From the NCBI GenBank assembly GCA_019449455.1, contig JAGRPO010000141.1, positions 1 to 64,000 on the forward strand: 64,000 nucleotides of DNA. Direction: 5' to 3'. Below the pieces are notes generated by a model that was given only the letters and a program-made list of their open reading frames with translations, was not told the origin of the DNA and did no database searches. This document shows, one piece after another, positions 1 through 15,004 of the stretch (its first letter is position 1; each line of letters opens with the position of its first letter). The DNA is from Betaproteobacteria bacterium. GTDB lineage: Bacteria; Pseudomonadota; Gammaproteobacteria; Burkholderiales; Usitatibacteraceae. The position numbers were made by a program, and so were the translations under genes.

Positions 1-1371
1 CGCCATTCGTCGCCGTCGCGGGTGTTCGCCGCGGCCGTCCTCGCCGTCCTCGTCGTCGATCCGTGGGCCGTGCTCTCGCCGGGGTTCTGGCTTTCCTTCG
101 GCGCCGTGGGCGCCATCTTCCTCGCCTTCGCGCTGCGTCCCCGGCCGCCCGGCGCGCTGCGCGTCGCGGCGAGGACGCAGGCGGCAGTCACGCTCGCGTT
201 GTGGCCTCTCCTCGCCTCGCTTTTCGGCGAGGTCTCGGCGGTCTCGCCCGTGGCCAACGCGTTCGCGATTCCGCTGGTGAGCCTCGTGGTCGTGCCGCTC
301 ACGCTGGCCGGATCGCTCCTGCCGCTGCCGTGGCTCCTCGTGCCGGCGCACGCGATCCTGGAGGCGGCGATGGTGCCGCTGGAGTGGCTCGCGGCGTTTC
401 CGTTCGCGGTCGCCGAGTGCGCGGCCGCGCCGGTGGCCGCGGTGGCGTGCGCCGTGGCGGGGGCCTGCCTGCTCCTCGCGCCGCGCGGCCTGCCGATGCG
501 CTGGGCGGGCGCGGCGCTCGTCCTTCCGCTCGCGTTCTTCCGCGCGCCCTCGCCGGCGGCGGGCGAGGCCTGGATCGACGTCCTCGACGTGGGGCAGGGG
601 CTCGCCGTCGTGGTGCGCACCGCCGCGCATTCGTTCGCCTACGACGCGGGGCCCTCGTGGAACGCGGAGTCGGACAGCGGCAACCGCGTCGTCGTGCCGT
701 TCCTGCGGGGCGAGGGCGTGCGCCGGCTCGACGGGCTCGTGATCACGCACGCCGACGACGACCACGCGGGCGGCGCGGCCTCGGTCGCGAAGGCCCGCGA
801 GCCGAAATGGCTGCTCTCGTCCCTGCCGGAGGGCGACGGGCGTCTCGATCTCGCGCCCCGGGCGGTCGCGTGCGTGGCGGGCACGCAGTGGGAGTGGGAC
901 GGCGTCGCATTCGAGGTGCTGCATCCGGCGGCCGCGGCGCTGCGCGACCGGCGGCGCGAGAACGACCGCTCGTGCGTCATCCGCGTCGCCGCGGGCTCGG
1001 GGTCGGCGCTCCTCGCCGCGGACATCGAGCGCCAGGCCGAGGGCGAGCTTGTCGCGCGATCGCGCCATCGCCTGCGCTCGGACGTGCTCGTCGTTCCGCA
1101 CCACGGCTCGCGCAGCTCTTCCACCCCGGCGTTCGTGGACGCGGTATCGCCCTCGGTCGCGCTCGTGTCCGTCGGCTGGCGCAACCGCTTCCGGCAACCT
1201 TCGCCCCTGGTCGAGGCGCGCTACCGCGAATCGGGGGCGTCGTTGTTGCGCACGGACGTGGACGGCGCGATTCGCGTCGAGCTCCCGGCCCGCGCCGGCG
1301 GCATGGTCGCCGTGCGCAGCCACGCCGAGCGCCGACGCTACTGGTCCGACCGGTCGCCGGGCCCGCCGTGA
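1..1371 (+). CDS. comEC: DNA internalization competence protein ComEC/Rec2 (C-terminal part, 5' end outside window)
   Basis: The reading frame is already open at base 1, so the gene starts upstream of the window; a GTG at 22 is only an internal codon. The first ~180 residues are hydrophobic membrane helices of the competence domain. From about residue 187 a metallo-beta-lactamase domain follows: DVLDVGQG, then HADDDHAGG near residue 249, then VPHHGSRSS. ComEC forms the inner-membrane channel for single-stranded DNA uptake, and the MBL domain is thought to degrade the non-transforming strand. It converges on the HD-GYP gene with only 9 bases between stops. Family assignment is secure. Confidence 0.93.
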   Translation, partial: RHSSPSRVFAAAVLAVLVVDPWAVLSPGFWLSFGAVGAIFLAFALRPRPPGALRVAARTQAAVTLALWPLLASLFGEVSAVSPVANAFAIPLVSLVVVPLTLAGSLLPLPWLLVPAHAILEAAMVPLEWLAAFPFAVAECAAAPVAAVACAVAGACLLLAPRGLPMRWAGAALVLPLAFFRAPSPAAGEAWIDVLDVGQGLAVVVRTAAHSFAYDAGPSWNAESDSGNRVVVPFLRGEGVRRLDGLVITHADDDHAGGAASVAKAREPKWLLSSLPEGDGRLDLAPRAVACVAGTQWEWDGVAFEVLHPAAAALRDRRRENDRSCVIRVAAGSGSALLAADIERQAEGELVARSRHRLRSDVLVVPHHGSRSSSTPAFVDAVSPSVALVSVGWRNRFRQPSPLVEARYRESGASLLRTDVDGAIRVELPARAGGMVAVRSHAERRRYWSDRSPGPP

Positions 1372-1380
1372 ACGCGAGGC

Positions 1381-2622
1381 TCAGTACTGGCAGAGCTGGG
1401 CGAGGCCCGGGGAAAGCCCGGGCAGGCCGAGCGGGCCGCGCGAGAGGTGCCAGAACTCGTCGAAACGGCGCTTGAGCGCGTCGAGCACGCCGGCGTCCAG
1501 CCGTCCCGTGCGCCCGGCGGCCGCAAGGGCCTCGCGGACCTGCAGGGCGTCCATGCCGGCACGATAGGAGCGCGTCTGCGTCAGGGCCTGGAAGACGTCG
1601 GCCACGCCGAGGATCCTCGCGGCGAGCGGGAGCGCGCCGTCGCCGATGCCGTCCGGATAGCCGAGGCCGTCTTCCCGCTCGTGGTGCTGGCGCGCCAGCT
1701 CGGCGATGCGCTCCATGGACGGCAGGCGCAGGATCACGTCGTAGGAATGCGCGGCGTGCGTTTCCATCACGCGCCGCTCCTCCGCCGTGAGCGGCCCCGG
1801 CTTGTTGATGATCTGGTCGGGGATGGCGAGCTTGCCGATGTCGTGCAGCAGGCCCGCCGTTTCCAGGTCGTCGCAGTCGCCTTCGGGGAGATCGAAGTGC
1901 TCGCCGAGCCGGCGCGCGATCGCCGCCACGCGGAAGGAGTGCTCGGCCGTGTAGGGGCACTTGGCATCGACGATGGCCGCCATCAGGAAGGGGACGGTTC
2001 GCCGGTCCTTCTCCGTCATCGGGGCGAACTCGATGCCGGCGAGGATCTCGTCGACCTTCTGGCCGACGCGCGCCTGGGCGATGTCGGCCCAGAAGACGGG
2101 GTCGCGGGCCACGGACGCGACGGCGGGCGCGAACTGCTCCGAGAACAGCGTTCCCATCGACGCCATCGCCTTCGCCAGCGCGTGCTCGCGCGAGCGAACG
2201 CCCGGCGCGAGCCAGGCGTCGAGGCGGTCGGCGAGGAAGACGAGATTCGCGGCGAGGCGCGTCGGCTGCGGCATCGCCTCCGACTCCTCCGTGTGCCACT
2301 GCATGTGGTGATTGCGCACGACCGGCTCCAGGTAGGCGAGGCAGTCGAGCGACTCGACCAGGCGGGCGCCGCGCTCGCAGTGCTGGTCCACCTCGCCCCA
2401 CTGGTCCTCGGCCACGAGATGGTCGTGCGTGTCCGTGGACGACACGCCGCAGTCGTGCAGCAGCCCGGCGACGAAGATGCGCTCGGCCTGCTCCCGGGAA
2501 GCGCCGAGCCGCAGGCCCAGCGCGTGCGCGATGAGCCCCACGCGCTTGTCGTGGCCGTGATCGGTGACGCCCACCAGGTCGATGGCGTCGGCGAGGAAGC
2601 GGATGACGTGGTGCGTCTTCAT
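1381..2622 (-). CDS. HD-GYP domain cyclic-di-GMP phosphodiesterase (last gene of the GTPase signalling operon)
   Basis: 413 aa from an ATG at 2622 that follows an AAGGAA ribosome-binding site. It has two HD-type halves. The N-terminal half carries LLHDCG and may be degenerate or regulatory. The C-terminal half is a canonical HD-GYP domain with AEHS, LLHDIGK near residue 258, HHERED and GLGYPDG, so the metal ligands and the GYP signature are intact. Active HD-GYP enzymes hydrolyse cyclic-di-GMP. It is 25 bases downstream of a roadblock-like gene and probably the output of the operon, but that is inference. No membrane segment or receiver domain is visible, so its input probably comes from a partner protein. 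Confidence 0.88.
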   Translation of the reverse strand: MKTHHVIRFLADAIDLVGVTDHGHDKRVGLIAHALGLRLGASREQAERIFVAGLLHDCGVSSTDTHDHLVAEDQWGEVDQHCERGARLVESLDCLAYLEPVVRNHHMQWHTEESEAMPQPTRLAANLVFLADRLDAWLAPGVRSREHALAKAMASMGTLFSEQFAPAVASVARDPVFWADIAQARVGQKVDEILAGIEFAPMTEKDRRTVPFLMAAIVDAKCPYTAEHSFRVAAIARRLGEHFDLPEGDCDDLETAGLLHDIGKLAIPDQIINKPGPLTAEERRVMETHAAHSYDVILRLPSMERIAELARQHHEREDGLGYPDGIGDGALPLAARILGVADVFQALTQTRSYRAGMDALQVREALAAAGRTGRLDAGVLDALKRRFDEFWHLSRGPLGLPGLSPGLAQLCQY

Positions 2623-2647
2623 CGGTTCCTTGCCCCGGCCGGCGGGC

Positions 2648-3289
2648 TCAGGCGTCCTCGGGCGCGTACCGTCGCGTGAGCGCCCAGGCGAGGGAAACGA
2701 ACTCGGGCGTGTTGAACCTGGGCACGCCGCCGATCGCGAGGACGAAGGTGTTCGCGCCCAGGTGCAGCGGCCAGAAGCCCAGCTGGCTGTTGCCCGAGGC
2801 GTCCAGCAGCCCCCAGCCGCCCGATTGCATCGAGAGGTTGGCCCCCAGGAGCTGCGCGTGGCGGTCGTGCACGCCGGCGAGGTCCGCGGCCAGGGCGGAG
2901 AGCCCTTCCGCGGTCTCGTGCGCGAATCCGGCCGCCGCGAGGTAGAAGCCCTGCGAGTCGGCCAGCACGCACCGCCCGGAGCCGGAAAGCCGGGCGAGCA
3001 GCGGCGGCAGCAGGTTCTCGAAGGCGCCTTCCGGCGCCGCGCGCGGCTCGGCCAGCCCCTGCACGAGGGCGAGGGACTGGAGCCGGTGCAGGAGCTCGCC
3101 CGCGTCGCCGGATGCCTCGCCGGCAAGGCGGGCGACGGTGGCGGCGCCGGAGTCGGGGCTGCGCGCGAGCCCCAGCAGCCGCAGGATGAAGCGCCGCGCG
3201 GCGTCGTTGCCCGGGTGGGAGGCGGCCAGGTAGGCGCCGGCCGGCGTAGGCGCGAGGAACCGGCCCTCGAGTATCCGGTAGGCGGTCAC
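2648..3289 (-). CDS. Roadblock/LC7-like protein with N-terminal helical domain
   Basis: 213 aa from a GTG at 3289 that overlaps the stop of the upstream GTPase gene (GTGA). Residues 1-95 are mostly helical (LLHRLQSLALVQGL), resembling a small winged-helix or helical module. The C-terminal ~110 residues have the alternating pattern of a roadblock/LC7 fold: VLADSQGFYLAAAG, an alanine-rich helix ALAADLAGVHDRHAQLL, then FWPLHLGANTFVLAIGG. Roadblock proteins bind or activate Mgl/Cvn-type small GTPases, and this gene sits directly behind one. The fold call comes from pattern only and is moderately sure; no catalytic function is implied. Confidence 0.55.
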   Translation of the reverse strand: MTAYRILEGRFLAPTPAGAYLAASHPGNDAARRFILRLLGLARSPDSGAATVARLAGEASGDAGELLHRLQSLALVQGLAEPRAAPEGAFENLLPPLLARLSGSGRCVLADSQGFYLAAAGFAHETAEGLSALAADLAGVHDRHAQLLGANLSMQSGGWGLLDASGNSQLGFWPLHLGANTFVLAIGGVPRFNTPEFVSLAWALTRRYAPEDA

Positions 3290-3822
3290 GGGCGAAGCCC
3301 CGGGTCCAGGGAGTGCAGCAGCGCCTTCACGAGCGTGCCCACGTCCTCGCGGCGGCGCGCGTCGACCTCGAAGACCGCCGGGTTCAGGCCATGGGCGGCA
3401 AGGCAGCGGTGGTAGAACGAGACGCCGGGCGCGGGATGCGTGTCCATGCGCGTGACGCCGACCACCATCTGCGTCTTGGCGATGTAGTCGCGGAAGGCGG
3501 TCACGAAGAAATCGACGTCCTGCTGCGGGTGCTTGCGCGAATTGTCGAGCATCAGGACGAGGCCGATGCCGCCCTCGGTGAGGATGTCCCACATGAAGTC
3601 GAACCGCTCCTGCCCCGGCGTCCCGTACAGGTGCAGCCGCTCGTGGTCGGCGATCTTCATGAGCCCGTAGTCCATGGCGACGGTGGTCCGGGGCTTCCTC
3701 TCCCGGGTCATGTCCGTGGCCGCCTCGTCGGTCCCGATCGGCGGGATGTCGCTCAACGAGGCGATGGCCGTGGTCTTCCCGGCGCCGACGGGGCCGGTGA
3801 ACACGATCTTGTAGTCGGCCAT
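3286..3822 (-). CDS. Small Ras-like GTPase of the conservon (CvnD)/MglA type
   Basis: 178 aa. G1/P-loop GPVGAGKT at residues 10-17, a threonine-rich switch I around 46-47, LYGTPGQERFDFMWD at 65-79 (G3 with the bacterial TPGQ form), TRMD at 124-127 as G4, and EVDARRRED as G5. The LYGTPGQ-RF-FMW signature is typical of the GTPases of actinobacterial conservons (CvnD) and of related proteobacterial proteins, which work with a roadblock partner. No lipidation or membrane segment is seen, so it should be cytoplasmic. It lies between the REC-like gene (3 bases upstream) and a roadblock-like gene (4-base overlap). It is likely the molecular switch of this operon. Confidence 0.85.
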   Translation of the reverse strand: MADYKIVFTGPVGAGKTTAIASLSDIPPIGTDEAATDMTRERKPRTTVAMDYGLMKIADHERLHLYGTPGQERFDFMWDILTEGGIGLVLMLDNSRKHPQQDVDFFVTAFRDYIAKTQMVVGVTRMDTHPAPGVSFYHRCLAAHGLNPAVFEVDARRREDVGTLVKALLHSLDPGLRP

Positions 3823-3825
3823 GGC

Positions 3826-4956
3826 CTAGCGCCCCGCGAGCCGGCCGAGAATCCGGCGCAGGATGCCGCGGCGGTCGGTCGATTCGCGCCGCTCGCCTTC
3901 GCGGGCCCCGGTCTCGCCGCGCCGGTCCCCGCCGCTTCGCCGCTCTTCCCGGATGCGCGGCGTGCTCGCATGCCCGGGGAGCGATTCCAGCAACCCCACG
4001 GCCTGCGCGGCCGACAGCAGCGGAAAGAGGTGCCGGTGCGGCACCCCCAGCGCGAGGGCCGCGTCGAGCGGCGTGTGCGGGGCCCCGACCAGGAGCGCGG
4101 TGATCCGCATCGCGTTGGGTGTCTCCGTCCAGCGCGTGAACACGGGCCAGTGGCGAATCCGGACCGGCACGTCGAGCGCGATGTCGCGCGACAGCCGCCC
4201 GCGCGCCGACCACAGCGCCACCTGCCAGAGCACGGGCGCGAGCGGCTGCAGGGGCGTCGCGGGCGCCGGGGCGGTTCCGACCAGCTCCCGGAGGTGCACG
4301 ATGTCCTCGCGCAGCGCGATGAGGCACACCGAGCGAAGGACGTTCGGGCGGATCGTCGTCTCGATGCCGTTGCGGTGCACGACGAACGGCCCGGGAAGCC
4401 CTTCGATGGCGCGCGACTTCCCGTCCCTGATCACGAGCGCGCAGCAATGCGACAGCAGCGCCTGGAAGTGGCCCTGGATGCAGTAGGTGGCGCGGGCGAC
4501 GTCGTCGGCGTTCCGGGGATCGATGTCGGGAGCGTCGCCGCAGCAGCGGTCCTCGATTTCCGCGTCGAGGGCGGTCGTGGCGGCGCGCGTCGCGACATCC
4601 TCCCTGGGCCGCGACACCACCGTGTGAGCGGGCTGCGGCGCCGGGGCGAATCCCTTGCGCGCCCGCGCGATGGCGGACTTGAGGGCCGCCGGGCTCACCG
4701 GCTTCGTCAGCCAGAGCGCTCCCTCGCGTTCCTGCGGCCGCGTGGACAGGATCACGCTCGGGACCTCCGGGTAGCGCTTGCGGTACTCCTTCCACACGCG
4801 GTCTGGGTCCGACGAGTCGAGGTCCACGACGCCGACCTGCGGCTTGCCCATCGTGAGCAGGCGGACCTTCTCCCATCCCGGGGACTCGAACAGGATGGCG
4901 AACTGGGCGCTGGTCCGTTCGGGGACGTTGAAGATCGAGACGGTCGTGACGGGCAC
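3826..4956 (-). CDS. Response-regulator-like (degenerate REC) protein with uncharacterised C-terminal region
   Basis: 376 aa from a GTG at 4956 preceded by GGGAGG at good spacing; the frame stays open farther upstream but that would overlap the previous gene. Residues 1-105 look like a shortened receiver domain: VVDLDSSD near residue 47 gives a possible phospho-acceptor, LTKPVSP near 84 the conserved lysine. Spacing is shorter than in standard REC domains, so phosphorylation is uncertain. The middle region (about 140-330) is rich in Cys/His early on (RCCGD, CIQGHFQ, SHCCALV) and matches nothing I can name. The tail is very basic (RRGILRRILGRLAGR). It ends 3 bases before the GTPase start, so a role in that switch is likely. 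Confidence 0.6.
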   Translation of the reverse strand: MPVTTVSIFNVPERTSAQFAILFESPGWEKVRLLTMGKPQVGVVDLDSSDPDRVWKEYRKRYPEVPSVILSTRPQEREGALWLTKPVSPAALKSAIARARKGFAPAPQPAHTVVSRPREDVATRAATTALDAEIEDRCCGDAPDIDPRNADDVARATYCIQGHFQALLSHCCALVIRDGKSRAIEGLPGPFVVHRNGIETTIRPNVLRSVCLIALREDIVHLRELVGTAPAPATPLQPLAPVLWQVALWSARGRLSRDIALDVPVRIRHWPVFTRWTETPNAMRITALLVGAPHTPLDAALALGVPHRHLFPLLSAAQAVGLLESLPGHASTPRIREERRSGGDRRGETGAREGERRESTDRRGILRRILGRLAGR

Positions 4957-4969
4957 CGCGCGCCTCCCT

Positions 4970-5638
4970 TCAGGCGACGCCGAGGCGCGAGCGCGCCTCG
5001 GACCATGACGGGACGCGCGCGCAGGCCTCGGGGAAACGGGCGCCGACGGCGCGCAGCCGGCCGGCGTCGGCCGTCGTGGCATAGATCGTCGCGAGGTGCT
5101 CCAGCGCGCGCTCGCGCGTCTGCGCGTCGTCCAGCGCCTCCTCGAGGAGTTCCCGGGCGCCGGCGAGGTTGCCCAGGGTGAGCTCCGCCTCCGCGATCGC
5201 GAGCCGGTCGTACGGGCGGGGCCCCTCGGCTTCGACCGACACGAGGTCGAGCCGCCCTTCCACCGCGTGGTCGAGGACCGCGGTGCCGTGGCGGTGCCCG
5301 GCGCGGCCGCCCGTGAACGACTCGCGGCAGGCGGAGCCGAGCAGGCCCCCGCACTGGCCGAGCAGGCGATCGCGCAGGCCGCGCCCGGCCGGGCCGAGCG
5401 CGATGTGCAGGTCGCGAAGCGCGCCGCAGGCGCCGGCCTCGTCCCGCAGCTCGGCCAGCAGCCCGATGCGCTGCGTGTGCGCGAGCAGGTCGCGCGGGGA
5501 GCGCGACACGCGATGGGCGAGATAGTCGGCCGCCGTCGCGTTGCGCCATTCCGGCGGCATGCGCAGCTCGCGCGACGTTCCCAGGGCGAACTCGGGGTCC
5601 GGGATCATCGTGGAGGCGGTCGTGTCCTGCGGGATCAT
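4970..5638 (-). CDS. Uncharacterised helical (TPR-like) protein of the signalling operon
   Basis: 222 aa, no signal peptide and no membrane helix. It is alanine/leucine-rich and probably all-helical. The C-terminal stretch LAIAEAELTLGNLAGARELL resembles a tetratricopeptide unit, followed by a second weaker one. The N-terminal part has several Cys (ACGAL, GQCGGLLGSACR) that do not form a recognisable metal site. It is 13 bases upstream of the REC-like gene. I see no good ribosome-binding site for the first ATG; a second methionine ten codons in is an alternative start. It may act as a scaffold, but no function can be claimed. Confidence 0.55.
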   Translation of the reverse strand: MIPQDTTASTMIPDPEFALGTSRELRMPPEWRNATAADYLAHRVSRSPRDLLAHTQRIGLLAELRDEAGACGALRDLHIALGPAGRGLRDRLLGQCGGLLGSACRESFTGGRAGHRHGTAVLDHAVEGRLDLVSVEAEGPRPYDRLAIAEAELTLGNLAGARELLEEALDDAQTRERALEHLATIYATTADAGRLRAVGARFPEACARVPSWSEARSRLGVA

Positions 5639-5663
5639 GGACTGTCGTCCGGGCGGCCTTGCG

Positions 5664-6407
5664 CTAGGTGAGCGTGTCCATGAGGTCGATCATGAACTCG
5701 GTGGCTTCCTCGTCGAGCTCGTCCCACCCGGCGAGGCCGAGGTTCGCGAGGATGTCGCGGCCCTTCGCGTCCTGGTCCATGCCGAGGAGCGCGTCGCGGA
5801 TCTCGTCGCGGCGAGGCGCGAGCCGGGGACCGGCCATCAGCGCGTGGTGCACGACGTAGATGTGGCTCTCGACGATCTGGCGAAGCTGGCGCCGCGTGAC
5901 CTCGGAGAGCTCCTCGAAGGACTGCTTCAGGAAGAATCCCGCGTCCGCCGTTCCCGAAAGAAGCGCCTTGGCGACCAGGACGTAGTTGCCGCAGGCGACG
6001 GCGGCCGTGTTGGCCGCCGAGAGGTCCGCGGGCTCGATCATGATCATGCCCATGGTGCGCACGTCGGGGTCGTCGGTGGAGGCGATGCGCGCGCCGGGCC
6101 GCAGGTCCTCGACGTGCTGCACCGCGCTCGCCGCGGGCACCGCGATGATCGCCTCGTCGGCCTTGTCCCGGGGCCTGGCGACGGGAACGAAGCCCTTCTC
6201 GCGCACCAGGAGCGCGGCGTCGTAGGGGTTGGCGTAGATGAGGTCGATCTTGCCGGCGGCGATGTCGGCGCGCTGGCGGACGAAGTCGTCGTAGAGCTCG
6301 AGGTGGATCGCCGCCTCCAGCCTGCGCTGCAGCCAGGTGTTGAAGATGAACCAGCCCGAGATGCGGGCGGGCGGGAAGTCGGGGCTCACGGTGAAGGTGT
6401 GGGTCAT
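5664..6407 (-). CDS. PhnD-like (phosphate/phosphonate) periplasmic-type binding protein without signal peptide
   Basis: 247 aa. The pattern is of a type 2 periplasmic binding fold of the PhnD group: IYANPYDAALLVREKGFVPV, then ARPRDKADEAIIAV, then a second lobe with ALLSGTADAGFF. The start at 6407 overlaps the stop of the PAS gene (ATGA). The N-terminus MTHTFTVSPDFPPARIS is not a signal peptide or lipobox, so the protein should stay in the cytoplasm. No ABC permease or ATPase is nearby. It probably serves as a ligand-sensing input of the GTPase operon rather than as a transporter part; this is inference. Confidence 0.72.
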   Translation of the reverse strand: MTHTFTVSPDFPPARISGWFIFNTWLQRRLEAAIHLELYDDFVRQRADIAAGKIDLIYANPYDAALLVREKGFVPVARPRDKADEAIIAVPAASAVQHVEDLRPGARIASTDDPDVRTMGMIMIEPADLSAANTAAVACGNYVLVAKALLSGTADAGFFLKQSFEELSEVTRRQLRQIVESHIYVVHHALMAGPRLAPRRDEIRDALLGMDQDAKGRDILANLGLAGWDELDEEATEFMIDLMDTLT

Positions 6408-6913
6408 GGCGAATAGGCCTCCCGCTCGCCGGGCGCGAAGAGCGTCGGGTAGAGCTTCGCGCACTCGTCGATCTTCGTGCGCGAGGGCTTGCGCCGCACG
6501 GAGGTGTAGCCCACGAGGTTGCCCTTGCGCACGTTGCCGATGACCGTGGCGAACACCCAGTAGTAGGCGCCGTCCTTGCGCAGGTTCTTCACGTAGCCCG
6601 TCCACTTCTCGCCGCGGGCGAGCGTGTCCCACAGGCCCTTGAACGCGGCGCGCGGCATGTCCGGGTGGCGCAGGATGTAGTGCGGGGCGCCGATGAGCTC
6701 CTCCTTCGAGTAGCCCGACATGTCCACGAAGGCCTTGTTCGCCTGCGTGATCATGCCCGGCACGTCGGTGCAGGAGACGATGAGCCGCCCCTCGGGGAAC
6801 GGCACCTCGACGTCGGTGTAGCGCACGATCCGGCTCGCCCCGTCGAAGTAGGTGAGCCTGGCTTCCTTGAACGCCCCGCCGGCGATGTCGGCGGGTTCCA
6901 TGTCCCTGAGCAT
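6404..6913 (-). CDS. PAS domain protein (Aer-like PAS sensor)
   Basis: 169 aa from an ATG at 6913 behind GGAGGG. Residues ~30-150 form one PAS domain of the aerotaxis-receptor type: ITQANKAFVDMSGYSKEELI, then APHYILRHPDMPRAAFKGLW, then GYVKNLRKDGAYYWVFATV. This subgroup commonly binds FAD and senses redox or oxygen, but whether flavin is bound cannot be read here. There is no methyl-accepting, kinase or GGDEF domain, so it must signal by protein contact. Second gene of the signalling operon, 26 bases behind the roadblock gene. Confidence 0.87.
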   Translation of the reverse strand: MLRDMEPADIAGGAFKEARLTYFDGASRIVRYTDVEVPFPEGRLIVSCTDVPGMITQANKAFVDMSGYSKEELIGAPHYILRHPDMPRAAFKGLWDTLARGEKWTGYVKNLRKDGAYYWVFATVIGNVRKGNLVGYTSVRRKPSRTKIDECAKLYPTLFAPGEREAYSP

Positions 6914-6939
6914 TCGACCCTCCGTGTCGCGGCCCGAGC

Positions 6940-7302
6940 CTAGATGACCTTGGTGATCGCCGCGGCCGCGCGCTTCACGTCCAGGAAGATGAGGCCGAGC
7001 TTGGCGTTCGCCTTGGCGAGCGTCGTGAGGACGGCCTCGTTTCCCGCGTGCGTCATGATCACGTAGCCTCGGTCGCCCTTGACCAGCACCTGCTCGAGCT
7101 CGCCGCGCGCGAGCTCCTTGGCCGTGCGGTCGCCCAGGGAAAGCAGGGCCGCGCTCATCGCCCCGACTCGGTCCTCGTCCATGCCCTGCGGCAGGAGCGC
7201 GGCCATCATCAGGCCGTCCAGCGAAATGACCGCCGAGGCTTCGATGTCTGCCGAAGTCCCGTTCAGGTCGCCCAGGATCGTCGTGAGAACTTCTGCGCGC
7301 AT
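6940..7302 (-). CDS. Roadblock/LC7 domain protein (MglB/CvnB-like), first gene of the signalling operon
   Basis: 120 aa, a complete single roadblock domain: GTSADIEASAVISLDGLMMA, MSAALLSLGDRTAKELA, QVLVKGDRGYVIM and a C-terminal helix ending AAAITKVI. Proteins of this size and type partner small GTPases as GAPs or scaffolds (MglB, CvnB). The start is supported by GGGAG seven bases upstream. The gene opens a run of eight minus-strand genes down to 1381, with all gaps under 30 bases, so its promoter must lie in the 297-base gap before relA. Confidence 0.88.
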   Translation of the reverse strand: MRAEVLTTILGDLNGTSADIEASAVISLDGLMMAALLPQGMDEDRVGAMSAALLSLGDRTAKELARGELEQVLVKGDRGYVIMTHAGNEAVLTTLAKANAKLGLIFLDVKRAAAAITKVI

Positions 7303-7599
7303 GCTCCGTCTCCCGATGAAGGGGGGAACGCGATGGGACTCGCGATTCCCCCGTCGCCGGCCGCCGGGCCGGCAAATCGTCTTCCGGGCGCCGCGCGGCC
7401 GATGGACCAGCCTCGCAGACGGCCCATGTCTTTCCAGATCATGTTGCACCCGGCGCGCGCGACGCAGTTGACGTGGCTCAACGGAAAATGAACTCGCGAC
7501 TCGCGCGCGAAACCTTTCGCGCGGGATCGTGGCGCCCCGGCCGGCGCCCGAAGGCACCGGGGTAGAATCGCGGCTGGAACCAATCCCCGAAGCACCGAC
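7303..7599. promoter_or_regulatory. Divergent intergenic region between the signalling operon and relA
   Basis: 297 bases without a convincing gene. On the plus strand TAGAAT at 7563-7568 is a plausible -10 box for relA, 32 bases before its GTG. No clear -35 could be picked out. The minus-strand promoter of the roadblock operon must also be here, but I see no distinctive box. No inverted repeat stands out. Confidence 0.35.
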
Positions 7600-9729
7600 G
7601 TGTTCACCGAAAAGCCAGGCACCGACCTCGCGCAGCTGGAAGCCGCCCTCGCCGGGACCTTCGGCGCGGCGCTGGCCGACGCCCCGTTGCGGGCGCTGCA
7701 ACTCGCGCGGGGGGCGTGCCAGGCCGCGGGGCGGGAAGAGGCGTTCGAGCGCACGGTCTCGGTGGCGAGACTGCTCCTCCTGCAGGGCGCCGACCCCGAC
7801 ACGGTGGCCGCGGCTCTCGTCAACGGCGCGATCCCCGAGGCCGAGCTCGACCTGGACGGCATCCAGGCCGCCTTCGGGCCCGATCTCGCCGGGCTCCTGA
7901 GGGGCCTGGGCCGAGCCGGGCGCATCGAGGCGCTGGCCTCCGCGCGCTCCGACCCGGAGCAGCTGCGCAAGATGCTCCTCGCGATCGCCGAGGACGTGCG
8001 CGTGGTGCTCATCAAGCTCGCCGAGCGCGTGGTCCACCTGCGCTCGCTCACGAAGGCCGAGGAGGCCGTGCGCCGCGCCGCCGGGGCGGAGACGCTCTCG
8101 CTCTTCGCGCCGCTCGCCAATCGCCTCGGCGTCGCCGAGCTCAAGTGGGAGCTGGAGGACTTCGCCTTCCGCTACACCGAGCCGGAGCTCTACCGGAAGG
8201 TGGCGGGCCTGCTCGACGAGAAGCGCAACGATCGCGAGGCCTACATCGCGCGCGTCGTGGCGACGCTCTCGGCGGAGCTCGCGGCGATGGGCATCGAAGG
8301 CGTGATCCACGGCCGCCCGAAGCACCTCTATTCCATCTTCCGCAAGATGCGCGGCAAGAACCTCGCCTTCGAGCAGCTCTACGACATCCGCGCCGTGCGG
8401 GTGATCGTGAAGAACGTGCGCGAGTGCTACGCGGTCCTCGGCGTCGTGCACGACCTGTGGACACCCATCGAGGGCGAGTTCGACGACTACATCGCGAGCC
8501 CGAAGGCGAACGACTACAAGTCGCTGCACACGGCCGTCGTCGGCCCCGAGGGAAGGACCCTGGAGGTGCAGATCCGCACCGAGGAGATGCACCGGCACTC
8601 CGAGCACGGCGTGGCCGCGCACTGGCGGTACAAGGAAGGGCGGCGCGCCGACCAGAAGTTCGACGCGAAGATCGCGTGGTTGCGGCAGGTGCTCGCGTGG
8701 AAGGCCGACGTCCTGGCCGGGGACGGCGCGGCCGGCCGCGCGACCCGCGGCGCCTTCGAGGAGACGATCTACGTACTCACGCCGCAGGGCACGGTCGTGG
8801 ACCTGCCGGCGGGCGCGACCCCGATCGACTTCGCCTACCACGTGCACACGGACCTCGGGCACCGCTGCCGGGGCGCCAGGGTGGACGGGCAGATGGTCCC
8901 GCTCACGACGAAGCTCGCCAACGCGCAGCGCGTCGAGATCGTCGCGGCCAAGCAGGGCGGCCCGTCGCGCGACTGGCTCGCCGGCGGCTACCTGGCGAGC
9001 CCCCGGGCGCTGGCGAAGGTGAGGCAGTGGTTCCGCCACGAGGAATTCGAGGTCGACGTCGCGAGCGGGCGCTCGGCGCTGGAAAAGGAGCTCACGCGCC
9101 TGGGGGCCACGAGCTTCGCGCACGAGAAGGTCGCGGTCGCCTGCGGTTTCGCGCGCACCGACGAGTTCCTCGCCGCCCTCGGGCGGGGCGAGGTCACGGC
9201 GCGCCAGATCGAGATCGCGGTGCGGGGCGAGGCACCGGTGCCGCCGCCGCCCGCCGTCACGGTGGTCCCGGAGCCGGAATCGCGCGCCTCCTCCGGCGTG
9301 CTGGTGCTGGGGGTGAACAACATCGCCACCCTCGTCGCCAAGTGCTGCAAGCCCGTGCCGCCCGATCCCATCATCGGCTTCATCACCCGCACGAGGGGCG
9401 TGATGGTGCACCGCGCCGACTGCCGCAACGTCACGGGGCTCGGGCCGGAGCAGCGCGAGCGCCTGCTCCCCGCGGAGTGGGGCAAGACCGGAGGCGCACC
9501 GTTCGCGGCGGACGTCGAGGTGGTGGCGCTGGATCGCCAGGGGCTGCTGCGCGACATCTCGGAGGCCATCTCGCGCGAGCGCATCAACGTGACGGCGGTG
9601 AACACCCTCTCGCGCGGCGCGCATGCCTACATGCGCTTCACGCTGCAGGTGGACTCCGGCGATGCCATCCATCGCGTGCTGCGGCAGGTGCGCGACGTGC
9701 CGGGGGTGGACCAGGCGAGGCGGATCTAG
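7600..9729 (+). CDS. relA: GTP pyrophosphokinase RelA ((p)ppGpp synthetase I)
   Basis: 709 aa from a GTG at 7600. Domains in order: degenerate HD hydrolase domain (~1-190, the HD metal pair is not present), synthetase domain (~215-340), TGS (~388-450), helical region, zinc-finger/CC region with CCKP near 581, and a C-terminal ACT domain. The synthetase motif is EFDD at 293-296, the form of monofunctional RelA; bifunctional SpoT/Rel enzymes have RxKD. It makes (p)ppGpp on amino-acid-starved ribosomes. Length and architecture match other betaproteobacterial RelA proteins. It is transcribed away from the GTPase signalling operon. Confidence 0.95.
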   Translation: MFTEKPGTDLAQLEAALAGTFGAALADAPLRALQLARGACQAAGREEAFERTVSVARLLLLQGADPDTVAAALVNGAIPEAELDLDGIQAAFGPDLAGLLRGLGRAGRIEALASARSDPEQLRKMLLAIAEDVRVVLIKLAERVVHLRSLTKAEEAVRRAAGAETLSLFAPLANRLGVAELKWELEDFAFRYTEPELYRKVAGLLDEKRNDREAYIARVVATLSAELAAMGIEGVIHGRPKHLYSIFRKMRGKNLAFEQLYDIRAVRVIVKNVRECYAVLGVVHDLWTPIEGEFDDYIASPKANDYKSLHTAVVGPEGRTLEVQIRTEEMHRHSEHGVAAHWRYKEGRRADQKFDAKIAWLRQVLAWKADVLAGDGAAGRATRGAFEETIYVLTPQGTVVDLPAGATPIDFAYHVHTDLGHRCRGARVDGQMVPLTTKLANAQRVEIVAAKQGGPSRDWLAGGYLASPRALAKVRQWFRHEEFEVDVASGRSALEKELTRLGATSFAHEKVAVACGFARTDEFLAALGRGEVTARQIEIAVRGEAPVPPPPAVTVVPEPESRASSGVLVLGVNNIATLVAKCCKPVPPDPIIGFITRTRGVMVHRADCRNVTGLGPEQRERLLPAEWGKTGGAPFAADVEVVALDRQGLLRDISEAISRERINVTAVNTLSRGAHAYMRFTLQVDSGDAIHRVLRQVRDVPGVDQARRI

Positions 9730-9775: not shown

Positions 9776-11122
9776 ATGCTTCGCCGCCTATCCGATCTCC
9801 TGAGCGAAGCCTTGATGGGCTTCCTGGCGCTCGCCGCGCTGGGGACTGGATTGGCGCCGTTCCTCTTCACGCTGACGCCCGGCGCGGCATCCGTGATCGA
9901 TGCGCTGGAATGGGTCATCGTCGGGGTCTTCGCCCTCGAGTACCTGGTCCAGCTGGCGGTCGCGCCGGACCGCGGCGCGTACCTGCGCGATCCGTGGCGC
10001 ATCCTGGATGCCGCGATCGTGGCCGGCTCGGTCGCCTCGCTGCTGCCTTCCGTCAGCGACGCCGCGCGCACCATGCCGGCCTTGCGCATCCTCAGGCTCT
10101 TTCGCGTCCTGCTGTTCGGCGTGCGCGCCGGCCACGGCATGGCCGCGCCCGCGGTTCCGCTCGCGCGCGGGCTGCCCGAGGGACCTCCCCGCGTGCGGCG
10201 GCTGCCCCGTGGGGGCGGGCGCATCGCCGAAGGCGAGTGGGGGGATCTCCTGCGCTGGGCCGCCTCGCCCACGAGCGAATGGATCCACGCCTCCAACCTC
10301 CCGCCGCAACGCCTTCGCGAAGCCGCCGAGGCTGCCGGGGTGCCGCACGTGATGGTGGAGGCCGCCCTCAACGAGTCCAGCTACCCGCGCCTCGAGGCGG
10401 GGCCGCGGTGGTCGGCGCTGACGCTTTCGGTGCCGTCGAAGTCGGACATCCTGCGCCGCGACCCGGTGCTGATGCTCGTGTCGGAGGACGACGTCCTGTC
10501 CCTCGCGCTCTATCCGCTGGAGCTCGAGAAGCCGCCCGAGCAGTTCGGCGCCCTGCCGTGGGGCCCGCGCTGCGCGCTCGACGTCATGAGGCGGGTGCTC
10601 GACCGCAACGAGGAACTCGCCGGGCGCCTCGAGCGCGAGGTGCGGGACCTGGAAGGATTGCCGGCCGACCAGAGTCCAGAGCACTTCTTCGAGGCGACCT
10701 TCCGGCTGAAGCGCTCCCTGTCGGTGGCGAAAGGCGACCTGTGGAGGCTGCGCGGGCTCCTGGAGATGCTGGCCGAAGGTCGCAGGACGCTGCCCGGCCT
10801 GGGCCAGCCGGGCCGCGAGGCCGCCGCGCGCCTGGCCGAGGAGGCGGACTACCTCTACGAGACCGTGGACAACACGCGCGAGTCGGTGCTCTCGCTCATC
10901 GACCTGCACATCAACGTCGCGGCCCACGACACCAACCGCTTCATGCGGCTGGTCGCGATCGTGAGCACGCTGGGGCTCATCCCGGCGATCACGGGCGGGC
11001 TCATGGGGATGAACCTCGTCGACTCGCCCTGGCCCGTCACGCTGGGCCAGGTGGCCTTCGCCACCCTCATCCTGATCCTCGGCATCCTCTACGCGTTCCT
11101 CGCCAAGGGCTGGCTGCGGTAG
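9776..11122 (+). CDS. Fusion of a voltage-sensor-like (ion channel) domain and a CorA-type Mg2+ transporter
   Basis: 448 aa. Residues ~10-117 hold hydrophobic helices ending in PALRILRLFRVLLFG (101-115), with arginines every third residue as in the S4 helix of voltage-gated channels; the stretch ALEYLVQLAVAP with RDPWRILDAAIV resembles S2-S3. There is no pore loop with a selectivity filter. Residues ~150-400 form the CorA cytoplasmic domain, and the C-terminal two helices contain the CorA signature GMN at 411-413 (GLMGMNLVDSPWP) plus a final helix and basic tail. CorA alone is about 315-370 aa. Both halves share one frame without stop. Function is probably divalent-cation transport; coupling to voltage is inference. 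Confidence 0.8.
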   Translation: MLRRLSDLLSEALMGFLALAALGTGLAPFLFTLTPGAASVIDALEWVIVGVFALEYLVQLAVAPDRGAYLRDPWRILDAAIVAGSVASLLPSVSDAARTMPALRILRLFRVLLFGVRAGHGMAAPAVPLARGLPEGPPRVRRLPRGGGRIAEGEWGDLLRWAASPTSEWIHASNLPPQRLREAAEAAGVPHVMVEAALNESSYPRLEAGPRWSALTLSVPSKSDILRRDPVLMLVSEDDVLSLALYPLELEKPPEQFGALPWGPRCALDVMRRVLDRNEELAGRLEREVRDLEGLPADQSPEHFFEATFRLKRSLSVAKGDLWRLRGLLEMLAEGRRTLPGLGQPGREAAARLAEEADYLYETVDNTRESVLSLIDLHINVAAHDTNRFMRLVAIVSTLGLIPAITGGLMGMNLVDSPWPVTLGQVAFATLILILGILYAFLAKGWLR

Positions 11123-11135
11123 CCGCCGGCGCGGG

Positions 11136-11723
11136 TCAGCGCGCGGGACGGGGCCGGATCGCGACGAGGGCGTCGAGCACCGCCCTGGTGCCGCGGCGCA
11201 CGTCGTGGGCGAACCTGGCGTTCTGGTCCCACACCCATTCGCTGAGGACCGAACCGGGCGTGGCGCGCGGCAGCTCGAGATACGCGTCGGCTTCGGATCC
11301 CTCGCGCACGACCCGCATGCCGTTCTTGTGCGCGAGGTGCATCATCGCGCCGTTCTCGTTCAGGCAGTGCACGAAGACCTCGCGCACGCCGCGGTTGGTC
11401 AGGTGCATGACGGCGCGCGAGAAGAGGGCGTTGCCGAATCCGCGGCCGCGCGCCTCGGGCAGCACCGACAGGCCGAGTTCCGCCTTCGTCGGATAGAAGG
11501 CGACGTGCACCACGGCGAGCAGGCGAAGGTCGTCGCCGGCAATGCCGAAGATCTCGTCGCGCTCGAAATCGATGCGCTCGTCGAGGGCGCGTATCCCGTC
11601 GTCGGCGATCGACGCGCCGAATCGCAGGCGCCGGTCGTCGGCGTCGAGGGCGAGGAAGTGCTGCGTGAGGGCGTGGCGATCGGTGTCGCGCAACCGAATC
11701 GGCAGGTGCGTGGTGCCGGTCAT
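11136..11723 (-). CDS. GNAT family N-acetyltransferase
   Basis: 195 aa. The ATG at 11723 has AAGGAG six bases upstream, which decides the start over a longer frame. The acetyl-CoA site is visible as LSVLPEARGRGFGNALF (motif A, Q/RxxGxG/A type), followed by VFVHCLNENGAMMHLAHKNG (motif B). The substrate is unknown; similar proteins are annotated only as GNAT. It converges on the CorA fusion gene 13 bases away. Confidence 0.85.
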   Translation of the reverse strand: MTGTTHLPIRLRDTDRHALTQHFLALDADDRRLRFGASIADDGIRALDERIDFERDEIFGIAGDDLRLLAVVHVAFYPTKAELGLSVLPEARGRGFGNALFSRAVMHLTNRGVREVFVHCLNENGAMMHLAHKNGMRVVREGSEADAYLELPRATPGSVLSEWVWDQNARFAHDVRRGTRAVLDALVAIRPRPAR

Positions 11724-11815
11724 GAGGTCTCCTTGTGGGTGACGACGAGCAGGTTGGGGCGCATACTCGACAAAGCAAGTACGGTGCCACCGTTTCTCGG
11801 ACCGCAAAGTTCGGC

Positions 11816-11821
11816 TATAAT
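11816..11821 (+). promoter_or_regulatory. -10 box of the tRNA-Val promoter
   Basis: A perfect TATAAT lies 18 bases before the mature tRNA 5' end. The -35 region at 16-18 bases spacing (around 11793-11798) is weak (TTTCTC). The box is in the intergenic gap between the divergent GNAT gene and the tRNA. Confidence 0.6.
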
Positions 11822-11838
11822 TCCCGCTTGCATTCCGC

Positions 11839-11915
11839 AGGCGCGTAGCTCAGTTGGTTAGAGCACCACCTTGACATGGTGGGGGTCGTTGGTTCGAGTC
11901 CAATCGCGCCTACCA
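11839..11915 (+). tRNA. tRNA-Val (anticodon GAC)
   Basis: 77 bases that fold into a full cloverleaf. The acceptor stem pairs AGGCGCG (11839-11845) with CGCGCCT, followed by A and an encoded CCA at 11913-11915. D arm GCTC...GAGC, anticodon stem CCACC/GGTGG with loop TTGACAT (anticodon GAC), T loop TTCGAGT. The next coding region begins only 9 bases after the CCA, so the tRNA is either co-transcribed with it or sits at a junction. Confidence 0.95.
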
Positions 11916-11923
11916 ATTTCTCC

Positions 11924-14900
11924 ATGCCGGTTCCCGCCCCCATCGTCGGGCTCATCGCCGTCGAGGACGATGACCTCGGGGCCATCGAGCCACTCTGGCA
12001 CCGCCTCGGCGCAAACGCCGCGCTCGCGGGCGTGCGCCTTTGTTTCGTCGCCTCCAAGCGTGCTTGCCCCGCGGTTCGCGGCGAGCTCGAGCGCCTCGCG
12101 GCCGCCGGGCCGCAGGGCTGGTCGCTGCACGAGGCCGAAGCGCGCGAGGATCCCGCCGGCGCCCTGGCCGCGGTCGCGGCGATCCATCCCGGAGCCGACG
12201 TGGCCTGGATCGACGCGCGCGCCCTCCTGCCGCCGGCCTGGGATGCCCGCCTGCGCAAGGCCGCGTATGCCGCGGAGGGCATCGGCGTGGCGGTGCCGCT
12301 ATGCGACGCGAGCCCGCTGCACGCGCTGCTCGACCCGCCCGCGCAAGGCGCCGACTCACCCGATGGCGGGCTCGTGGACCGCGCCGCCTACTGCCTTGGC
12401 GACCGGACGTACTACGAGGTGCCCGTTCCGCACGCGGTCTGCGCGTACTTCCGCCGCGACGCGCTCGACGCGGCGCAGCCGGTGCCGGGGGAGGGCCTCG
12501 CGTCGCTCGCGCGGCGCATGCGCCTGCTGGGCTTCGTCTGCGTGGTCTGCGATTTCCTCTACGTGGGCTGCGCGGGCGCCGCGCCCGAGCCGCTGGCCGT
12601 CGATGCCGTCGAGCGCGCCGCCTTCCTGCGCAACAATCCCCTGCGCGGCCTGCGCCGGGCGGCCGGGGACGCCGTTCGACGCGGGCTGCCCGCGGTGTCG
12701 GTGCCCGGCCTCGACTCGCGTCCCGTGCAACTGCACGTCATGCATTACTGGGGCGGCGGGCTCGACAAGTGGGTGCGCGACTTCGGCCGTGCCGATGCCT
12801 CGCGCACGAACCTGATCCTCGCCTCCTACCGGATCGGCGAGGACGGCGGCCAGCGCATCGTCCTCTACGGCGACCCCGACTCCCTCGTCCCCATCCGCAC
12901 CTGGGACATCGCGCGGCCGATCCGCTCCACCGCCACGGCGAGCGTGGAGTACCGCCGCATCCTCGAGCAGGTCGTCGCGGAGTTCGAGGTCGAGACGGTC
13001 ATCGTGTCGTCCCTCATCTGGCAGTCGCTGGACGCCCTCGCGCTCGACGTGCCGACCTTCCTGGTGTGCCACGACTTCTACCCGATCTGCCAGGCGATCA
13101 ATCCGCATTTCGGCAAGCCGTGCGAGCGCTGCACGAGCGAGGACCTGCGGCGCTGCTCGGCCGCCAACCCGCTCAACGCGACCTTCAAGGACCTGTCGAG
13201 CGCGGAGTGGGACACGCTGCGCCGCCGCTTCGTCGACCTCCTGCTGGAGCGCCGGATCGAGGTGGTCGTGCCGTCGCCCTCGGTGGCGCAAACCTTCCGG
13301 CGCCTCGAGCCGCGGCTGCGCGAGGTGCCCATGCGCGTCATCGCCCACGGCATCGACCTCCAGGCGGCGCGGCTTCCGGCGCCGCCGCGAGCGGCCTCCG
13401 AGCCGATCCGGCTCGTGGTGCTCGGGCGCTACACGGAACTCAAGGGCGCGAAGCTCATGAGCGAGGCGGCCGAGGCATTGCGCCCGTTCGCGCAGGTCAC
13501 GCTGCTGGGCTGCGGGAAGGCCGGGATGGAGGCCGCCCAGGCGCACGGGTGGAACGCCGTCGAGCACTACGAGCCCGCAGAGCTGCCGGAGCTGCTGCGC
13601 GGGATCGCGCCGCACGCGGGCCTGCTCGCCTCGATCGTTCCCGAGACCTTCAGCTACACGCTGAGCGAGCTCTTCGCCCTCGGCATCCCGCCGGTGGCCA
13701 CCGCGCTCGGGAGCTTCTGCGACCGCATCGAGGAGGGGGAAAACGGCTTCCTCTTCGCGCCCGACGCAGGCGCGCTCGTGAAGGCCGTGCGGCGGCTCCA
13801 CAGGGAACCCGGGCTCCTCGAATCGGTCGCAGGGAGGCTCGCGGCCGCGCCGCCGCACCGCACGACCGCGCAGATGGTGCGCGACTACGAGCCGCTGCTT
13901 CCCCAGGGCGAGCGGGCGGTGGCGCGCTTCAAGGTGGGCGCGAGCTGGCAAAGCGGCCTCACCGAGCCCTACCGCCAGCTGGACGAGGCCTACGCGGAGC
14001 TCACGGGGGCGTATTCGCACCTCACGAAGGCGTACGCGGAGCTCACCGATGCGTACGCGCAGAAGCGCGCGGCATACGATCAAGTCCGGGCCGAACTGGA
14101 TGGGGAACCGGCGCAGGCCGGCTCCTCCCGGGTGGCCGGCGAACAATCCGAAGGAAACGCAAGAATGAACGACATTTCGCAGGCATTCGCCTGGGCCGAG
14201 AAGCTCTCGCCGAAGCTCCTCAAGTCGCCCTGGTGGATCGGACACATCCCCTTCGCCTTCGAGCTCATCGGTCGCCAGAGGCCGCGCATCCTCGTCGAGC
14301 TCGGAACCTACAGCGGGTCGTCCTTCGCGGCGTTCTGCCAGGCCGCCGAGGCCTGCGGCGCCGGCACGAAATGCTACGGCATCGACCTGTGGGAAGGCGA
14401 CATCCACATGGGAAGCTTCGACGAGGAGCTCTTCCGCGAGATCTCGGGCTACATGGCCGCCAACCACCCGGGCACGGCCGTCCTCGTGCGCAAGGACTTC
14501 AACGCCGCCGTCGCCGACTTCGCGGACGGGTCCATCGACTTCCTGCACATCGACGGCACGCACACCTACGAGGCCGTGGCCAACGATTTCCGCACGTGGC
14601 TGCCGAAGATGTCGGAGCGCGGCGTCGTGCTCTTCCACGACATCAACGTGACGGTGGACAACGTGGGCGAGCCGGCAAGGCACTTCGGCGTGCGCCGCTT
14701 CTTCGACGAGACGAAGGGATCCTATCCGCACTTCGAGTTCGACCACTGCTACGGGCTCGGGGTGATGGTCGTGGGCGCCAACGCCGCGCCCGAGGTGCTG
14801 GAACTCGTGGAGCTCTCGAAGTCGCCGGGGTTCAGGGACTACTTCGCCGCGAAGGGCGGCGAGGTCTCCAAGCGCTTCGCGGACATGGGCGTGAAGCTCC

Positions 14901-15004
14901 CCGTGCACGCCGCGTACGGCGCGGCCGTGCCGCTGTGGCGGCGCGCCGCCAACAAGGCCCGCCGCATCCTGCGGCGGGCGCTGGGCGCCGCGAGGGCCGC
15001 GTGA
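11924..15004 (+). CDS. Large fusion: GT4-type glycosyltransferase, coiled coil, class I SAM methyltransferase
   Basis: 1026 aa from the first ATG after tRNA-Val; no ribosome-binding site is visible before it. Residues ~1-250 are of unknown type. About 260-680 is a GT-B glycosyltransferase: HVMHYWGGGLDKWV, VVLGRYTELKGAKLM, then PETFSYTLSELFALG (the ExxxxxxxE motif of GT4). About 680-725 is a short heptad repeat (DEAYAEL, KAYAELTDAY). From ~748 a methyltransferase follows: VELGTYSGSSFAAFC, DFLHIDGTHTYEAV, VVLFHDINV (Methyltransf_24 type). A methionine at 14165 with an AAGGAA-like site could be a separate internal start. Likely role: surface polysaccharide assembly and capping. Confidence 0.82.
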   Translation: MPVPAPIVGLIAVEDDDLGAIEPLWHRLGANAALAGVRLCFVASKRACPAVRGELERLAAAGPQGWSLHEAEAREDPAGALAAVAAIHPGADVAWIDARALLPPAWDARLRKAAYAAEGIGVAVPLCDASPLHALLDPPAQGADSPDGGLVDRAAYCLGDRTYYEVPVPHAVCAYFRRDALDAAQPVPGEGLASLARRMRLLGFVCVVCDFLYVGCAGAAPEPLAVDAVERAAFLRNNPLRGLRRAAGDAVRRGLPAVSVPGLDSRPVQLHVMHYWGGGLDKWVRDFGRADASRTNLILASYRIGEDGGQRIVLYGDPDSLVPIRTWDIARPIRSTATASVEYRRILEQVVAEFEVETVIVSSLIWQSLDALALDVPTFLVCHDFYPICQAINPHFGKPCERCTSEDLRRCSAANPLNATFKDLSSAEWDTLRRRFVDLLLERRIEVVVPSPSVAQTFRRLEPRLREVPMRVIAHGIDLQAARLPAPPRAASEPIRLVVLGRYTELKGAKLMSEAAEALRPFAQVTLLGCGKAGMEAAQAHGWNAVEHYEPAELPELLRGIAPHAGLLASIVPETFSYTLSELFALGIPPVATALGSFCDRIEEGENGFLFAPDAGALVKAVRRLHREPGLLESVAGRLAAAPPHRTTAQMVRDYEPLLPQGERAVARFKVGASWQSGLTEPYRQLDEAYAELTGAYSHLTKAYAELTDAYAQKRAAYDQVRAELDGEPAQAGSSRVAGEQSEGNARMNDISQAFAWAEKLSPKLLKSPWWIGHIPFAFELIGRQRPRILVELGTYSGSSFAAFCQAAEACGAGTKCYGIDLWEGDIHMGSFDEELFREISGYMAANHPGTAVLVRKDFNAAVADFADGSIDFLHIDGTHTYEAVANDFRTWLPKMSERGVVLFHDINVTVDNVGEPARHFGVRRFFDETKGSYPHFEFDHCYGLGVMVVGANAAPEVLELVELSKSPGFRDYFAAKGGEVSKRFADMGVKLPVHAAYGAAVPLWRRAANKARRILRRALGAARAA

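Follow-up and report, generated by a model that had tools for sequence, protein, structure and literature searches.

A group 3 MglA GTPase operon with predicted internal sensors that may set type IV pilus polarity in a betaproteobacterium

The closest described relatives of the system reported here are switches built around GTPases of the MglA family. In Myxococcus xanthus, a polarity module (MglA, MglB, RomR/RomX, RomY and SgmX) combines a Ras-like GTPase of MglA group 1, which carries an intrinsic arginine finger, with a roadblock GTPase-activating protein (GAP), a receiver-domain protein and a tetratricopeptide-repeat (TPR) effector. RomR/RomX is described as the guanine nucleotide exchange factor and MglB as the GAP (PMC9481161), and MglA-GTP is described as working on pili via the TPR protein SgmX (PMC7519303). 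The conservons of actinobacteria (CvnA–D), based on MglA group 2, likewise place a GTPase and a roadblock protein in a sensory operon. MglA of group 3 is widespread in beta- and gammaproteobacteria, including methanotrophs, filamentous sulfur oxidisers and Neisseriaceae, and its mechanism is nearly unstudied; in its published gene neighborhood, MglA is accompanied by one or two MglB and by a protein of unknown function that combines a receiver with a winged helix (PMC4316618). Here we describe an operon at positions 1381 to 7302 of a 64,000-nucleotide stretch of betaproteobacterial DNA (contig JAGRPO010000141.1; hereafter the window, meaning the whole stretch analyzed) whose core we assign to MglA group 3 and which adds to that neighborhood a TPR-like protein and a pair of putative sensors.

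The operon comprises eight intact and tightly packed open reading frames (ORFs), all on the minus strand, which we call A to H in order of transcription and which are separated by 26, -4, 25, 13, 3, -4 and 25 bases. An earlier note on this DNA, made from the sequence alone, had described eight minus-strand genes with gaps under 30 bases or overlaps, as the measured range of -4 to 26 bases bears out. Its domain calls (roadblock, PAS, PhnD-like, GTPase and HD-GYP) are clear by Pfam, with a weak match for the second roadblock protein (0.0026). None of the eight proteins contains a strong hydrophobic segment.

The identity of the system rests on gene F (3286..3822), a small GTPase of 178 amino acids recognized by Pfam, G motifs and phylogeny. 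Wuichet and Sogaard-Andersen (2014) give a Thr-Thr pair in G2, GTPGQ in G3, a G4 without Lys and DAR in G5 as marks of MglA groups 2 and 3 (PMC4316618). F has K-P-R-T-T-V in G2, with the Thr-Thr invariant and a Thr replacing the arginine finger of group 1, YGTPGQERF in G3, with GTPGQ invariant, VTRMD in G4 (TRMD, no Lys) and VDARRR in G5 (DAR), all as expected of group 3. The published group 3 neighborhood corresponds to E-F-G-A, with E, G and A adjacent in 66 of 66 loci (defined below) and the winged helix of E judged from the secondary structure of a predicted model and from PMC4316618 only. In a tree of 100 GTPase sequences, which held no group 1, 2 or 5 reference MglA, window F pairs with the GTPase of locus L007, from a Methylophilaceae metagenome-assembled genome (MAG) (support 99/94), and lies together with Snodgrassella MglA inside one 95-row clade (100/100), apart from five other GTPases; Snodgrassella MglA has been assigned to group 3 (PMC11112851). 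Because the G motifs, the neighborhood and the shared clade agree, F is classed as MglA group 3 and not as a conservon GTPase, and the core of the operon is almost certainly a group 3 system. The earlier note had called the operon conservon-like and its GTPase CvnD-type. Conservon proteins share the Lys-less G4 and the DAR of G5, but the group 2 assignment is rejected on the motifs and on missing partners: Pfam finds no kinase among the eight operon proteins that could represent the sensor histidine kinase CvnA, and neither Pfam nor NCBIfam gives a match of the conservon kind for CvnC.

Conservation of the gene set was assessed in 80 loci fetched via the GTPase and in a further 20 taken from same-order genomes. 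Sixty-six of these loci, from beta- and gammaproteobacteria, were usable in that each flank was 3.5 kb or longer. D, E, F, G and A are present on one strand in every one of these 66 loci, so that a five-gene core D-E-F-G-A is well supported and D, to which the text of the 2014 survey makes no reference, is a constant part of the set. B and C accompany the core in 56 loci, and the exact order D-E-F-G-A-B-C is kept in 49. Circular permutation of this order gives the A-B-C-D-E-F-G of the window, otherwise seen in L007 only. Genes outside the cluster vary from lineage to lineage, and most of the set is missing around more distant GTPases of the same order (L168-L173). The earlier note had proposed a single system, to be abandoned if the genes lay scattered in relatives; apart from the HD-GYP gene they do not, and the view of one system, in which a GTPase is joined by roadblock partners and probable sensory inputs, is supported. 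Its statement that no such system had been described needs dividing. E together with MglA and either one or two MglB has been published (PMC4316618) and a Snodgrassella homologue has been studied (PMC11112851), whereas for the TPR part and the PAS/PhnD-like pair we found no published description, the search having covered the running text of PMC4316618; that text names no TPR, PAS or PhnD-like part. The permuted gene order and the added HD-GYP gene further set the window apart from published group 3 clusters.

Core and inputs might be mere neighbors, with an independent GTPase module and B-C as a separate sensory pair carried along. The core stands without B and C nearby in 10 of the 66 loci, the core and the A-B-C block can be permuted, and L077 carries a second B-C pair, all of which would fit such an arrangement. 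It accords poorly with the adjacency of B-C to the core in 56 loci, across several orders and in two permutations, and with the cohesion of A, B and C in both permutations, and we judge it distinctly unlikely. B and C are gained or lost jointly in seven of seven independent contrasts on the GTPase tree (sign test p 0.016; absence meaning none within 7 kb).

Variants of the cluster also occur among the loci. The second B-C pair of L077 lies past its full cluster (10851-14764), in the company of an E-like protein and of a divergent GTPase that shares 38% identity with window F. In L023 (6540-8528), a Thiothrix MAG listed as complete, E and F share one open frame, either a fusion or a sequence error. 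Halothiobacillus-type clusters carry between G and A a protein of 150-190 amino acids with no Pfam match (L012:9177-9737, with homologues in L009, L018 and L021).

The partners of F resemble the parts of known MglA systems to differing degrees. A (6940..7302, 120 amino acids; Pfam Robl_LC7 2.5e-16) is an MglB-type roadblock/LC7 protein and the predicted GAP of F, and has the Asp-Gly pair given as typical of MglB coupled to MglA of groups 2-5 (PMC4316618). G (2648..3289, 213 amino acids) is a divergent roadblock protein, extended at its N-terminus, and corresponds to the second MglB of 1:2 systems; its own weak Pfam match is joined by Robl_LC7 matches, at best 7.9e-5, in 17 of 32 orthologues. 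D (4970..5638, 222 amino acids), which the earlier note had called simply helical, can be specified further as TPR-type: it has a weak Pfam TPR match and up to 18 of 37 orthologues match TPR families. Its predicted model is helical, with weak Foldseek TPR matches, none below E 0.001, and the Snodgrassella orthologue (L081) has an extra N-terminal hydrophobic segment. We regard D as a candidate effector or scaffold. E (3826..4956, 376 amino acids) has no Pfam match, yet its AlphaFold2 model (mean predicted local distance difference test score, 85) upholds the earlier description as REC-like: the N-terminal domain has a receiver fold, with Foldseek matches including CpaE and the CikA pseudo-receiver, and beyond it lies a separate domain whose end, made of helices and a short strand, is winged-helix-like. 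Asp47 and Lys85-Pro86 are invariant among E orthologues and the C-terminal tail is conserved.

The predicted sensors B and C are the most distinctive additions to the core. B (6404..6913, 169 amino acids; Pfam PAS_3 7.8e-16) is a stand-alone PAS protein that matches the PAS domain of Escherichia coli Aer (structure 8dik; phmmer 8e-34), with 54 of 109 aligned residues identical. The side chains by which Aer contacts flavin adenine dinucleotide (FAD) are H53, R57, M69, W70, N85 and R115 (PMC9668731). The window protein and 66 of 66 aligned sequences retain five of the six (H53, R57, W70, N85 and R115), and the position of M69 is replaced, by Leu in most. FAD binding is predicted because B is an Aer-like PAS with conserved contact residues, and B is thus a predicted redox sensor of the flavin type; unlike Aer, it is soluble and has neither a HAMP domain nor the signaling domain of a methyl-accepting chemotaxis protein (MCP). 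C (5664..6407, 247 amino acids; Pfam Phosphonate-bd 3.8e-42) belongs over its whole length to the family of the periplasmic binding proteins PtxB, ArrX/AioX and PhnD, with full-length Protein Data Bank profile matches to PtxB, ArrX/AioX and a phosphonate-binding protein. It differs from them in that it has no signal peptide, and no hydrophobic segment, and the operon contains no ATP-binding cassette transporter genes. Among orthologues, 41 of 59 matching ORFs begin at the first strand with no leader and the others have longer, unverified starts; we infer that C is cytoplasmic.

Possible input genes vary further among relatives. A protoglobin gene lies inside or adjoining the cluster in seven relatives' loci, and in L010, L016, L018, L021 and L026 an extra PhnD-like gene separates G from A. 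In L080 (9217-13061), the space between G and A is taken by a partner-switching set within a group 3 cluster, made up of a STAS-PhnD fusion and a PAS/SpoIIE-phosphatase/ATPase protein. This variation in protoglobin, SpoIIE-type/STAS-PhnD and second PhnD-like genes fits a sensory slot.

What the switch might act on is indicated by its neighbors in other genomes and by its host. In Thiothrix-type loci the next gene past the operon is of the FimV/HubP type, at a distance of 2-3 bases from C in L008, L023 and others, with the FimV C-terminal domain above the NCBIfam cut-off in the members tested, and in L043 and L085, of another lineage, such a gene is nearby on the opposite strand. In both the Thiothrix-type and the L043/L085 lineages a bactofilin gene adjoins D or lies one gene off; SofG, the M. 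xanthus GTPase that sorts pilus ATPases, is positioned with the help of the bactofilin BacP (PMC5703909). Class I adenylate cyclase is encoded two genes downstream in Methylomonas loci. L007 has genes for a CheY-type response regulator, CheW, an MCP and an Hpt protein divergent from A, a Pil-Chp-like set whose regulator resembles PilG. The host genome of the window encodes two adjacent PilT-family ATPases over the cut-off and a FimV-type protein. In Snodgrassella, mutation of an orphan mglB belonging to this system changed a spreading behavior that was ascribed to type IV pili, and re-examined transposon sequencing data are reported to show all three mglB genes as beneficial (PMC11112851).

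On these grounds a role in polarity or pilus function is probable, if far from assured, and we lean slightly towards the fuller reading in which this MglA group 3 switch operon sets type IV pilus polarity, steered by internal sensors. F would alternate between GTP- and GDP-bound forms, with A, together with G, serving as its GAP; E, like RomR, would recruit or activate F at the pole, and D, like SgmX, would be an effector stimulating the pilus machine. B would sense the respiratory redox state via FAD and C a small anion-like ligand, and the two would shift the balance of activation and inactivation such that pilus activity tracks the energy state. Gene content thus suggests that the operon directs which end leads in crawling cells according to energy state. 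The parallel of D with SgmX, E with RomR and A with MglB is an analogy by domain type, and the cited passages on M. xanthus mention neither a redox nor a PhnD-like input. A redox input acting on the GTPase is a tentative proposal, to which we give somewhat less than even weight. More ambitious, and rather doubtful, is the idea that a single operon holds the whole polarity circuit, in which a cytoplasmic FAD-PAS and a leaderless PhnD-like sensor act directly on the GTPase cycle and let type IV pili drive surface energy taxis with no methyl-accepting receptor involved. Should the PAS protein feed the GTPase, respiration would have a route to pilus polarity that bypasses chemoreceptors; the fixed-order five-gene core with its redox and ligand pair in any case offers named, testable parts, namely an effector, an activator and a switch signal.

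Several observations weigh against this proposal. Only some lineages show the neighboring FimV, bactofilin and Pil-Chp-like genes; the mglB mutated in Snodgrassella is unlinked, and Snodgrassella has neither B nor C; and the input pair is optional, because ten loci have none beside the core. D and E are likened to SgmX and RomR by domain type, not by demonstrated homology, and the winged-helix-like domain of E is compatible with a transcriptional output. The switch could accordingly govern transcription, E being a DNA-binding protein like a response regulator, gated by the GTPase and roadblock proteins in answer to B and C. The receiver fold and helix-turn-helix-like C-terminal end of the E model are what such a protein would have, and Wuichet and Sogaard-Andersen, who termed the E-type protein one of unknown function, suggested a transcription link from the same architecture (PMC4316618). 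Pfam finds neither a shared domain nor a consistent DNA-binding match among 35 E orthologues, however, and the relatives' neighboring genes are of polarity, scaffold and chemosensory kinds, which leaves regulation of transcription an unlikely function beside the pilus polarity we favor.

The last gene of the operon, H (1381..2622; HD_5 1.2e-45), encodes two HD domains, the C-terminal one an HD-GYP domain with intact motifs in the translation (HDIGK and HHEREDGLGYP, in the pattern HD...HDIGK...HHE-x-DGxGYP), and is a predicted cyclic di-GMP phosphodiesterase. The earlier note had read the operon as a single conservon-like pathway that starts at the PAS and binding proteins, runs via the GTPase and ends in HD-GYP, breakdown of cyclic di-GMP being its output. 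H does lie only 25 bases past G, and regulators of type IV pili such as FimX are described as binding cyclic di-GMP (PMC7519303). H is next to the core in none of the 66 usable loci, however, and a search of 200 genomes found full-length homologues from other genera, 30-41% identical, in 17 others, on other contigs or at other places than the GTPase wherever a genome has both. By hand count, F occurs in 4 of the 18 H-bearing genomes, the window genome included, with no clear enrichment. With the conservon kinase and CvnC also missing, we consider that pathway very unlikely and reject H as the output of the core. H is instead an accessory, local addition to the operon, which may reduce cyclic di-GMP within the same response. 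Nearby HD-GYP genes are rare: L072 (2526-5703) has, upstream of its group 3 cluster and divergent from it, genes for two HD-GYP proteins with N-termini that look receiver-like by eye.

The operon is flanked by a comEC-type gene (22-1371, plus strand) and a relA/spoT-type gene (7600-9729, plus strand). A search of 27 genomes from the genus and family of the window species did not turn up the GTPase. Mis-binning of the contig can be rejected, as the relA-type gene next to the operon shares 87-88% identity with that of other genus members (86-88% in the closest genomes of the same genus and family). comEC and relA are directly adjacent in L152, of the same genus, and L149, of the same family, only; the other eight relatives fetched are incomplete or have another insert there, and in other relatives a transglutaminase/ATP-grasp/alpha-E/protease set (names by eye) precedes relA. 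The window species thus probably acquired the operon in the comEC-relA gap, which is the simplest reading; the relatives may instead have lost it. The GC fraction of the cluster (0.717) is uninformative as a mark of transfer because it lies within the range of the flanks (0.70-0.76). The comEC-relA gap itself (window 1372-7599; L151, L147, L148, L153, L152 and L149) is a variable slot.

Between the operon and the divergent relA/spoT-type gene, the intergenic region 7303..7599 presumably contains the promoter; no match to a sigma-70-like promoter was found in it, and a promoter and terminator scan did no better than on shuffled sequences. Elsewhere in the window, a single ORF of 1042 amino acids (11876-15004) joins, by the look of its translation, a glycosyltransferase to a methyltransferase.

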